Shown: piece by piece, positions 61,484 to 64,000 of the stretch
How the letters are laid out: the number at the start of each line of letters is the position of its first letter
How positions within the stretch are numbered: the stretch's first letter is position 1
Origin: Micromonospora sp. HM5-17
Lineage (GTDB): Bacteria > Actinomycetota > Actinomycetes > Mycobacteriales > Micromonosporaceae
Assembly (NCBI RefSeq): GCF_003762835.1
Contig: NZ_RJWA01000007.1
Coordinates: 62,001-126,000 of the forward strand
DNA: 64,000 nt
Reading direction: 5' to 3'
Position numbers and translations under genes: made by a program
The notes under the pieces: model-generated
What the model saw: the letters and a program-made list of their open reading frames with translations, nothing else
Told to the model about the DNA's origin: nothing
The model's database searches: none

Positions 61484-63517
61484 CTATGCCTCCGCGACCC
61501 GGTCCGGCACCGCCGCGTACGCCGTCCCGGGCGCCCCGGGCGCGGCCGGAGCGGGGAGCAGCCAGCCAAGGAGGTCGGCCAGGACGGCGAGGCCGTCCCG
61601 GCTCAGCACCGACTCGGGGTGGAACTGGACGCCCGCGTACGTCGTCCCGCGCAGCGCGTGCACCGCGCCGTCGGCGGCCTCCCGGGCCAGCCGTACCGGC
61701 CCGTACGGGCCGGTGACCTCCGCGGCCTCGGCCACCGCCGTGTAGCTGGAGTAGAACCCGACCCGTCGGACCGTCCCGAACAGGTCGATGTCGCGGTGCA
61801 GTCCCTGGTACGGCATGACCCGGCGGCGCAGCGTCAGCCCGAGCCGACCGGCCAGGACCTGGTGCCCGAGACAGACCCCGAGCGTCGGGTGGCCGGCCCG
61901 GAGCAGCCGTTCGACCGTGGCGTCCAGTGCGGCCATCTTCGGGTCGGTCAGGTCGCTCGGGTCGCCGGGGCCCGGGCCCACCACGGTCACGTCGGCGGCG
62001 GTCGGATCCAGGCCGGCCCCCAGCTCGGTCCAGGCGTGGACGTCGACGGACGCCCCGAGCGCCCGTAGTTGGTGGGCGAGCATGCCGGTGAAGGTGTCCT
62101 CGGCGTCGATGACGAGGACCCGGCGACCGGCGAGCCAGGGCAGCACCGTGGCCTCCGGCCTCCGCTGTTCGAGCCAGAACGGCGCCAGAATGTCGTTGCG
62201 CGCCGCCAGCGCCGCGCGTACCGCCGGATCCTCGGCGAGCCGGACCTCCGCCGCCACCGTGGTCTCGGCGGGTTCGCGGCGCGTCTCGGTGGCTGCCCGG
62301 CCCGGTACGGCGGGTTCGCGGCGTATCCCGGTCGCTGCCCGGCCCGGCGCGGCCGGACCCAGCCCCAACGCGGCCAGCACCCCGGCGGCCTTGGCGTGGG
62401 TCTCGGCGACCTCGCCGGCCGGGGTGGAGTGCCGTACCAGGGTCGCCCCGACCGACACCCGCAGTGCGCCGGCCGGGGAGAGCTCCGCGGTCCGGATCAG
62501 GATCGGCGCGTCCAGGGTCTGCCGGCCGGTGTCGTCGACGCCCAGCAGCGCGAGTACGCCCGCGTAGTAGCCCCGACCGCGCCGCTCGTGCCGGGCGATC
62601 ACCCGGCAGGCGTTCTCCATCGGGCTGCCGGTGACGGTGGGGGCGAACATGGTCCGGCGCAGAACCTCCCGGACGTCCAGCGAACCCCGCCCGGCGAGCA
62701 GGTACTCGGTGTGCACGAGGTGCGCCATCTCTTTCAGGTACGGCCCGAGCACCTGGCCGCCGTGCTCGGCGACGGTCGCCATCATCTTCAGTTCCTCGTC
62801 GAGCACCATGTAGAGTTCGTCGATCTCCTTCGGGTCCGCGAGGAACTCCAGCAGCGCCGCCCGATCCGCCGCCGCGCCCGGGTGTCGGAAGGTCCCGCTG
62901 ATCGGGTTCATCATGACCAGGCCGTCCTCGACGCTCACGTGGCGCTCCGGCGACGCGCCGACCAGGGTCCGGTCGCCGGTGTGCACCAGGAACGTCCAGT
63001 AGGCCCCCCGCTCGTCGGTCAGCAGCCGGCGTAGCGCGGCCGTCGCGGCCGGCAGGGGCGGACCGGCCAGCGTGCCCCGGTACGAGCGGTGGATCACGAA
63101 GTTGGCTCCCTCGCCCCGGCCGATCTCGTCGCGGAGCACCCGGTCGACGGTCGCGGCGTACTCGGCGTCGGAGATGTCGAACCCGCCGTCGCGGACCGGC
63201 ACCGTGGTGTCGGGCAGCGCGGCCAGCGCCTCCGCCAGCGGGACCCGCTCGTGCCCGGCGAGCACGAGGCAGGCCAGCGGGGCACCGTCGTCGGCACAGG
63301 CGAACCCGCGCTCGGCGATCTGCCGGTACGGCACCAGGGCCAGCGTGCGGGGGCCGGCCGGGCCGGGCTCCAGGGGGATGTCGGCGAGCCGGTCGACGGT
63401 GCGCAGGGTGCCGGTGAAGACCTCGAGGCCGGCGGCGCCCTCCCGCCGTATCAGGGCGAACGGTCCCGGGTCGGCGCCGGTGGCGACCGTGTCGAGCAGG
63501 TGTCGGAGCAGTGTCAT
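61484..63517 (-). CDS. Fused anthranilate synthase-type protein (TrpE-TrpG / PhzE-like)
   Basis: A 677-residue fusion of a chorismate-binding domain (about 110-385) and a class I glutamine amidotransferase domain (about 463-655). Chorismate site: ISGTFRHPG, FAPTVTGSPMENACRVI and YYAGVLALLG. Amidotransferase triad: Cys549 in LGVCLGHQVLAGRLG, His633 and Glu635 in FHPESV. The N-terminus resembles PhzE (2-amino-2-deoxyisochorismate synthase) and the anthranilate synthase group together. The linker holds a duplicated 14-residue unit. The Trp attenuator upstream favours anthranilate/tryptophan supply. No other trp or phz genes are adjacent. ATG 63517, GAGGGG upstream. Confidence 0.9.
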   Translation of the reverse strand: MTLLRHLLDTVATGADPGPFALIRREGAAGLEVFTGTLRTVDRLADIPLEPGPAGPRTLALVPYRQIAERGFACADDGAPLACLVLAGHERVPLAEALAALPDTTVPVRDGGFDISDAEYAATVDRVLRDEIGRGEGANFVIHRSYRGTLAGPPLPAATAALRRLLTDERGAYWTFLVHTGDRTLVGASPERHVSVEDGLVMMNPISGTFRHPGAAADRAALLEFLADPKEIDELYMVLDEELKMMATVAEHGGQVLGPYLKEMAHLVHTEYLLAGRGSLDVREVLRRTMFAPTVTGSPMENACRVIARHERRGRGYYAGVLALLGVDDTGRQTLDAPILIRTAELSPAGALRVSVGATLVRHSTPAGEVAETHAKAAGVLAALGLGPAAPGRAATGIRREPAVPGRAATETRREPAETTVAAEVRLAEDPAVRAALAARNDILAPFWLEQRRPEATVLPWLAGRRVLVIDAEDTFTGMLAHQLRALGASVDVHAWTELGAGLDPTAADVTVVGPGPGDPSDLTDPKMAALDATVERLLRAGHPTLGVCLGHQVLAGRLGLTLRRRVMPYQGLHRDIDLFGTVRRVGFYSSYTAVAEAAEVTGPYGPVRLAREAADGAVHALRGTTYAGVQFHPESVLSRDGLAVLADLLGWLLPAPAAPGAPGTAYAAVPDRVAEA
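62271..62354. repeat. 42-bp tandem duplication in the anthranilate synthase linker
   Basis: 62271-62312 and 62313-62354 are about 85% identical and encode repeated PGRAAT-RREPA 14-residue units. In frame, so length changes would be tolerated. Confidence 0.85.
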
Positions 63518-63575
63518 CGGGTCGTTCCCCTCGCTCGGGGCCGTCCGGCGGGGCCGGAAGCGGGGAGGAACGCCG

Positions 63576-63640
63576 GCGGCCGCCGCGTGGGCGGCCGCGT
63601 GGAAGACTACGCGCGGAGGTCGGCCGCCACAGTGGCGGCC
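63576..63640 (-). promoter_or_regulatory. Tryptophan attenuator: mutually exclusive hairpins
   Basis: On the minus strand four complementary segments follow one another: 1 = 63640-63633 (GGCCGCCA, overlapping and just after the Trp codons), 2 = 63629-63621 (TGGCGGCCG), 3 = 63598-63590 (GCGGCCGCC), 4 = 63584-63576 (GGCGGCCGC). Segments 1:2 pair over 8 bp, 3:4 over 9 bp, and 2:3 over 8 bp as the competing antiterminator. Stalling at the Trp codons would cover 1 and allow 2:3; finishing the leader at its stop would cover 2 and allow the 3:4 terminator. It lacks a U-tract. Confidence 0.75.
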
Positions 63641-63666
63641 CACCAGGACTGACGTCGCGCGAGCAC
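63607..63666 (-). CDS. Trp attenuator leader peptide
   Basis: A 19-codon ORF starting GTG, peptide VLARRQSWWAATVAADLRA with adjacent Trp codons, ending TAG. It lies about 90 bp upstream of the fused anthranilate synthase gene and begins 6 nt after TAGACT, so it is probably translated from a leaderless mRNA, as are several Trp leaders known in actinobacteria. The tandem Trp codons in a GC-rich, Trp-poor setting and the hairpins are strong combined evidence. Confidence 0.75.
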   Translation of the reverse strand: MLARRQSWWAATVAADLRA

Positions 63667-63672
63667 GGGCCG

Positions 63673-63678
63673 AGTCTA
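63673..63678 (-). promoter_or_regulatory. -10 box TAGACT for the attenuated transcript
   Basis: TAGACT on the minus strand, 6 nt before the leader GTG. TTGACC lies immediately upstream of it (too close to act as its -35). Confidence 0.6.
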
Positions 63679-63920
63679 GGTCAACCACCGCCCCGGAGCC
63701 GCCCGCTCCCACCAGATGGGCGGCCCGTGGCCCCGTGAGCCGGCAGGACCAGGGCGACGGGCGCCCGGCGCCGCCGGACGTCCCACCGCCCGCGTCACGA
63801 GCGCCCGGCGACCGCCGGCCCGCGTCGCGACCGCCCGGTCGGCCGGCGGTGTCGCCCCGCCGGCTCAGGCCTGCGCGACCGCGACATCAGCGGCACCCGG
63901 AGCGGGTACGGTTTCCGTCG

Positions 63921-64000
63921 ATGAGGATTCTCGCTCTCGACCTGGGTACGTCGTCGGTACGCGGCCTGGTGCTGGATGCCGGCGCCCGGCCGCTGCCGGA
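63921..64000 (+). CDS. FGGY-family carbohydrate kinase, N-terminal fragment (runs off the window)
   Basis: The first 26 codons of a gene continuing to the right. MRILALDLGTSSVRGLVLDA is the phosphate-1 loop of FGGY kinases (gluconokinase, xylulokinase, glycerol kinase); the subgroup cannot be told. TACGGT lies 8 nt before the ATG, and no ribosome site is seen. Confidence 0.8.
   Translation, partial: MRILALDLGTSSVRGLVLDAGARPLP

Follow-up and report, generated by a model that had tools for sequence, protein, structure and literature searches.

The window, a stretch of 64,000 nucleotides from Micromonospora sp. HM5-17, carries on its reverse strand a gene of the fused anthranilate synthase type and, upstream of it, a short leader region with a -10 box, a leader peptide ORF and four RNA segments of alternative pairing (Table 1).

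Table 1. Positions of the leader elements and of the fused gene in the window
Feature	Position	Strand	Basis or remark
-10 box TAGACT (TAnnnT)	63673-63678	-	Read directly; TAnnnT 6-7 nt 5' of the leader start in 110/111 loci
Leader peptide ORF VLARRQSWWAATVAADLRA*, GTG start, 19 codons + TAG (63609-63607)	63607-63666	-	
Two adjacent Trp codons TGG TGG, proposed sensor	63640-63645	-	Direct reading; comparison of loci
Outer stem, 5' arm CGCGCG, codons 2-4	63656-63661	-	Partner 63610-63615
Outer stem, 3' arm, directly 5' of the leader stop	63610-63615	-	Fold and 50-leader alignment
Segment 1	63633-63640	-	Direct reading and fold
Segment 2	63621-63629	-	63622-63629 pairs with segment 1; 63621-63628 with segment 3
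Segment 3	63590-63598	-	Direct reading and 50-leader alignment
Segment 4, 3' arm of the proposed terminator	63576-63584	-	Direct reading
Fused anthranilate synthase, Chorismate_bind + GATase, 677 aa, PhzE-like	61484-63517	-	Domain and structure-sequence matches

Leader region and fused gene in the window

An earlier sequence-only reading of this DNA had described TAGACT, 6 nt and a 19-codon GTG ORF with two adjacent Trp codons, which proved exact on re-reading: TAGACT (63678-63673, reverse strand) is followed by CGGCCC and then by GTG at 63666. The three mutually exclusive helices that it had proposed, 1:2 (8 bp), 2:3 (8 bp) and 3:4 (9 bp), were likewise confirmed. Helix 1:2 is formed by GGCCGCCA/TGGCGGCC with a 3-nt loop, helix 2:3 by GGCGGCCG/CGGCCGCC, and helix 3:4 by GCGGCCGCC/GGCGGCCGC with a 5-nt loop, and their placement, as read and as computed, fits control by a ribosome. 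The unconstrained fold of the window leader (-57.3 kcal/mol; z -2.34) contained helices 1:2 and 3:4 together with five of the six pairs of the outer stem, which encloses 1:2. Since 5 of 200 shuffles folded as well or better, the fold by itself is mildly unusual in GC-rich DNA. The attenuator had been called complete; this stood for the leader, the Trp codons and the three helices, but not for the end of the terminator, where the T-run is absent (CGGCGTTCCT). The Rfam release 15 covariance models gave no match to positions 63400-63800 up to E 10.

The downstream ORF encodes both a Chorismate_bind and a GATase domain, in agreement with the claim that the leader precedes a fused anthranilate synthase gene. 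Its closest solved structure was PhzE (3r74, 559 bits), whose fused chorismate-binding and amidotransferase domains it shares, and its match to TrpE-clade3 (TIGR01815) was 155 bits, below the curated cut-off of 739. An ordinary trpE was found elsewhere in the genome (NF010086, 810 bits; cut-off 693), followed on its strand by IGPS, trpB and trpA, and therefore the fused gene is a second such enzyme in this genome. The trpD gene (TIGR01245, 350 bits) lies apart from the trpE operon. Between the leader and the fused gene, the sequence CCCC-GAGCGA-GGGG (63527-63540, reverse strand) could mask the ribosome site of the gene.

Conservation of the leader and the computed switch

The leader was compared in a close set of 111 loci holding the gene (105 distinct, since the window's own gene is counted twice as L003 and L006 and some other genomes are duplicates). 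The named relatives, taken from the best 80 of at least 526, were Micromonosporaceae (Plantactinospora, Micromonospora, Salinispora, Actinoplanes, Asanoa and others) and two Pseudofrankia. An ORF with two adjacent Trp codons (WW) behind TAnnnT was present in 110 of the 111 loci, with a spacing of 6 nt (49 loci) or 7 nt (61 loci), the lone exception being a Pseudofrankia locus, L096, with Trp-Arg. In a wider set, composed of loci from the searches and 100 chosen places in further genomes and skewed to Micromonosporaceae, 185 of the 242 distinct fused genes had the WW leader 6-8 nt after TAnnnT. When these upstream regions were shuffled with dinucleotide content kept, 1 of 4,840 shuffled sequences had it. 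The sequence-only reading had suggested looking for WW codons before orthologous genes, and both sets showed them. Judged from these sequences, the conservation of the leader is not chance; it is this comparison across loci that settles that the leader is real rather than fold noise of GC-rich DNA. In L096 and in two further close relatives missed by the WW rule, L147 and L170, the leader persists with a single Trp codon, followed by CGG (Arg). Each of the three stands beside relatives with two Trp codons.

For the structural comparison, 50 leaders were selected from 73 representatives; both Trp codons were invariant in this alignment, the rows of which had been picked for having the leader. 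Helix 1:2 was paired in 98.9% of cells, in a register with one bulged base, and helix 3:4 in 97.3%, a figure that counts as unpaired the cells of one terminator (L017) misplaced by MAFFT. The outer stem was paired in 88.3% of cells, its innermost pair in 25 of the 50 leaders, and helix 2:3 in 88.5%, its eighth pair in 6. The majority of relatives have helix 1:2 with one bulged base and helix 2:3 with seven pairs.

Three covariation analyses of the same alignment, which covers Micromonosporaceae and Pseudofrankia, yielded 0, 1 and 0 pairs, not beyond shuffles. The compensatory stem changes that the sequence-only reading had looked to within Micromonosporaceae were not found, the stems being nearly invariant there. 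Because the stems barely vary, covariation within the family is uninformative, and such constancy of the segments is expected if each must fit two partners. RNAalifold chose a long-range fold of 1:4 with 2:3 for the 50 leaders; no covariation supported it, and it was rejected.

Compensatory changes do appear in the terminator stem across families. The arms differ by family (GCGGCC/GGCCGC, GCGACC/GGTCGT, AGACC/GGTCT and GAAGGCC/GGCCTTC) with pairing kept. A set of 62 distinct arm pairs gave 248 cells, of which 222 were paired and 26 were changed on both sides, compared with maxima of 207 paired and 15 double-change cells in 1,000 shuffles; this count omits 9 of the 185 leaders, which have no CCGCC/GGCGG core, and the column shuffles ignore relatedness. 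A TTT within 10 nt 3' of the terminator was present in 50 of the 185 leaders, so that most relatives are, like the window, without a U-tract.

The effect of a translating ribosome on pairing was computed for 174 of the 185 leaders, the 11 without a recognisable core motif being omitted, and a helix was scored as formed at P >= 0.5. The ribosome was assumed to bar the 12 nt that begin with the A-site codon and, at the stop codon, an additional 14 nt before the P-site codon; in the stall model all bases upstream were barred. For helix 2:3, pairing was computed on transcripts that stop short of segment 4. This helix formed in 172 of the 174 leaders when the last Trp codon occupied the A site, the exceptions being L144 and L146, compared with 3 with the stop codon in the A site and 8 with no ribosome. 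After segment 4 was added, the number of leaders in which helix 3:4 reached 0.5 was 152 at the stop codon and 173 with no ribosome. For the window leader, the probability of helix 2:3 was 0.995 when stalled and <0.001 at the stop codon, where that of helix 3:4 was 0.84. In 162 of the 174 leaders the spacing between the last Trp codon and segment 2 is the same; the position of the stop codon varies, 5' of segment 2 in some lineages and 3' in others.

Distribution among fused genes and other tryptophan genes

By the rule of WW behind TAnnnT, 57 of the 242 distinct fused genes have no leader. A tree was built with 200 rows remaining from 240 after removal of near copies, two short fragments having been dropped beforehand. 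On this tree, which was made by a quick method and has some long branches and only a midpoint root, presence or absence of the leader required 5 changes; shuffled labels needed 47.4 on average, and 0 of 500 shuffles were as low. One group, of cluster-type homologues, consisted of 47 rows with no WW leader, and the window gene lies outside it. The match of one member of this group (L214) to PhzE was 745 bits, compared with 559 for the window gene and 543 for a Streptomyces-like homologue. Neighbourhoods were sampled for five members of the group, and phenazine-type precursor genes were present in three of them: an isochorismatase and a PhzG-like protein near L266 (4 proteins scanned), and a class II DAHP synthase each near L267 (5) and L269 (2). 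None of these types was found among the proteins scanned near L265 (3) and L270 (2). The automatic choice of ORFs took the wrong strand in some GC-rich stretches, trpE included, so that each neighbourhood is a sample.

The two leaders with a single Trp codon, L147 and L170, sit inside the main leader group. In one family, f7, 5 of 10 tree rows have no leader; the six f7 sequences that were read (L231-L234, L237 and L238) have no WW leader and carry TAnnnT 6-8 nt 5' of the gene's own start, and these upstream regions look as if the leader had been excised.

A model, R1, was built solely from the leaders of fused genes and searched against the window's genome and 41 genomes of the family. In the window's genome it recovered the window site (E 4e-12), and the next match (E 0.10) was before trpS (309 bits; cut-off 177), on contig C3 at about 1500-1620 of the reverse strand. 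There, a leader MRMTTNGWWAP stands behind TACCGT, with similar segments and with TTT after the terminator. The family genomes gave 68 matches up to E 0.5, of which 39 at E <= 0.01 lie before the fused gene (25, by position), trpS (8), trpD (3) and TrpE-clade3 genes (2), or at a contig end (1, with a WW leader). The two TrpE-clade3 fused enzymes scored 893 and 837 bits (cut-off 739), and no leader-bearing PhzE-like gene was found in their two genomes. Of the 29 weaker matches 7 were checked; six precede trpS, one of these being the site in the window's genome, and the seventh, L318, has no leader. When 20 R1 regions were read, 17 had a WW leader behind TAnnnT, two (L306 and L317, read by eye) had a WW leader with no such box, and L318 had none.

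In three Micromonosporaceae genomes (L300, L301 and L311) a stand-alone trpD follows a WW or WWW leader, and WWW leaders precede the TrpE-clade3 fused anthranilate synthases L304 and L315, which belong to another family than the window gene. The trpD of the window's genome has no leader of this kind upstream, and R1 gave no match on the contig that carries it together with the trpE operon (C45).

On balance, these distributions favour a view in which Micromonosporaceae use one attenuator design as a Trp regulon that follows function and not ancestry, covering PhzE-like and TrpE-clade3 enzymes, separate trpD and trpS, and separating primary-metabolism from cluster-type fused enzymes, with a terminator lacking a U-run in the lineage of the window.

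Known attenuators and the proposed mechanism

In S. lividans, according to the available text of PMC8079986, trpL1 precedes trpE (SLIV_27120) and trpL2 precedes trpS, both being leaderless from RNA-seq, and the mean distance from the -10 box to the start site is 6.3 nt. The 6-7 nt spacing of TAnnnT in 110 of 111 loci fits this mean, if the start lies where we place it. The window element resembles trpL1 in its monocistronic anthranilate synthase gene, its hairpins and its leader peptide with a Trp run, probably also leaderless; trpL1, as described there, has three Trp codons and two hairpins followed by a uridine-rich stretch, whereas the window leader has two Trp codons and no such stretch. 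The peptide of L125, a Streptomyces-like homologue with 55% identity to the window gene, is MFAHSTQNWWWTAHPAAH, one residue apart from trpL1 as given in that text, MFAHSTRNWWWTAHPAAH. The terminator arm of the Streptomyces-like homologues, so named because the genus is suggested by the trpL1-like peptide, is GAAGGCCGCCC, compared with GCGGCCGCC in the window. Since these homologues carry a near-trpL1 peptide, the window element is best read as the same device before an orthologous gene. Similarly, the Trp leader before trpS in the window's genome resembles trpL2, although it has two Trp codons and trpL2, as described, one.

Trp-dependent attenuation has been studied experimentally at the anthranilate synthase of S. 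venezuelae (Lin, Paradkar and Vining 1998, as cited in the available parts of PMC1262725 and PMC4833913) and, by the same cited literature, in C. glutamicum. The S. venezuelae system, by its description, is like the control proposed for the window in being Trp-dependent and in acting at a fused anthranilate synthase; PMC5958127 and PMC5897657 both mention that fused enzyme, the latter calling it an anthranilate synthase in the part available. Classical actinobacterial trp attenuators are described in PMC1262725 by UGG repeats and a complementary triple gGCC-rGCy-GGCC, and segments 2, 3 and 4 of the window are similarly built on GGCC and its complement. However, the Corynebacterium and Streptomyces cases in the available text all have poly-U, which the window does not and which weighs against its terminator; that text makes no mention of Micromonospora. 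A literature search found nothing on trp leader-peptide attenuation in Micromonospora; the 1998 report and one of 2015 that treats actinobacterial Trp attenuators (reference 17 of PMC4833913, in the part available) may cover the family. The kind of control is already known and may be seen here in another group of soil bacteria, priority being subject to those two reports. A search on SCO2117 found nothing. The TrpE3 of S. coelicolor is presumably the fused enzyme. TrpE3 is called the central enzyme of the pathway in that species in the available text of PMC5036795, which cites work on fused enzymes.

In our assessment, the window element is with high probability a ribosome-mediated Trp attenuator of actinobacterial type. 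It would serve a stand-alone enzyme that duplicates, beside the ordinary trpE, the first step on the way to tryptophan. Transcription would start at or adjoining the leader GTG, and the ribosome would load on the leaderless end. When charged tRNA-Trp is ample, the ribosome would reach the stop codon and cover segment 2, so that helix 3:4 would form and transcription would presumably end. When charged tRNA-Trp is short, it would stall at the two Trp codons and cover segment 1, segment 2 would pair with segment 3, the terminator would be blocked, and the fused anthranilate synthase would be made. The leader very probably raises enzyme output at low tryptophan. The claim of the sequence-only reading that the gene is under Trp attenuation by stalling appears supported, at the level of sequence and modelling, by the WW codons, the spacing, the three helices, the computed switch and the other Trp genes; from these we infer the leaderless start, stalling, termination, Trp response and anthranilate as product. 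The points that count against an attenuator are the T-run absent from the window, the within-family covariation likewise absent, helix 3:4 forming at the stop codon in 152 of 174 leaders and not in all, the stall-test exceptions L144 and L146, the six f7 sequences and the mild fold. The U-tract was taken as a usual but non-defining feature of the class.

A functionless chance ORF among GC-rich hairpins deserves almost no credence: GC-rich DNA folds easily, as the 5 equally good shuffles of 200 show, but chance does not account for a leader in 110 of 111 loci, nor for one in 185 of 242 genes when shuffling yields it once in 4,840. A better case can be made, though we think it rather unlikely, that Trp is sensed by stalling and the output is not intrinsic termination, with helix 3:4 acting through Rho or with access to the ribosome site being controlled. 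The window has no T-run, TTT follows the stem in just 50 of 185 leaders, and the gene's ribosome site was mostly paired in 92 scored leaders (median unpaired 0.2; 72 below 0.3), a count in which GC content is uncontrolled. Against it, the arms of helix 3:4 covary across families, T-runs end other leaders, and trpL1 has its two hairpins and uridine-rich stretch (PMC8079986, available text).

It is improbable, in our estimate, that the enzyme works as PhzE does, supplying ADIC to a secondary metabolite, and that its gene merely borrows Trp control. Protein sequence alone does not separate an anthranilate synthase from an ADIC synthase, and why PhzE stops at ADIC is not visible in it (PMC5958127, in the part available); moreover, the closest solved structure is PhzE 3r74 at 559 bits. 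However, leader-bearing genes stand apart from the 47-row group with no leader, a member of which matches PhzE at 745 bits; among its five sampled neighbourhoods, few proteins of which were scanned, two encode a class II DAHP synthase, and a third encodes both an isochorismatase and a PhzG-like protein; and in S. venezuelae the fused enzyme is regarded as an anthranilate synthase (PMC5897657, available text). The anthranilate role proposed for the window enzyme follows the Streptomyces case and this separation from the no-leader group.

With attenuation of Trp genes as the preferred reading, a control known experimentally from Streptomyces would extend to a family rich in natural products. The leader may serve as a sequence sign by which fused anthranilate synthases that supply tryptophan can be told from paralogues in biosynthetic clusters, a distinction that the protein sequence by itself does not give, and a terminator functioning with no U-run would, if true, give a handle on how transcription ends in actinobacteria.

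Two further features of the window concern annotation. The frame of the fused gene is open through the entire leader up to a GTG at 63712 (61484-63712, reverse strand), so that automatic annotation may report a protein of 742 aa and thereby conceal the attenuator. On the forward strand, a divergent frame (63921-64000) starts with MRILALDLGTSSVRGL, which we take to resemble the start of a sugar kinase.
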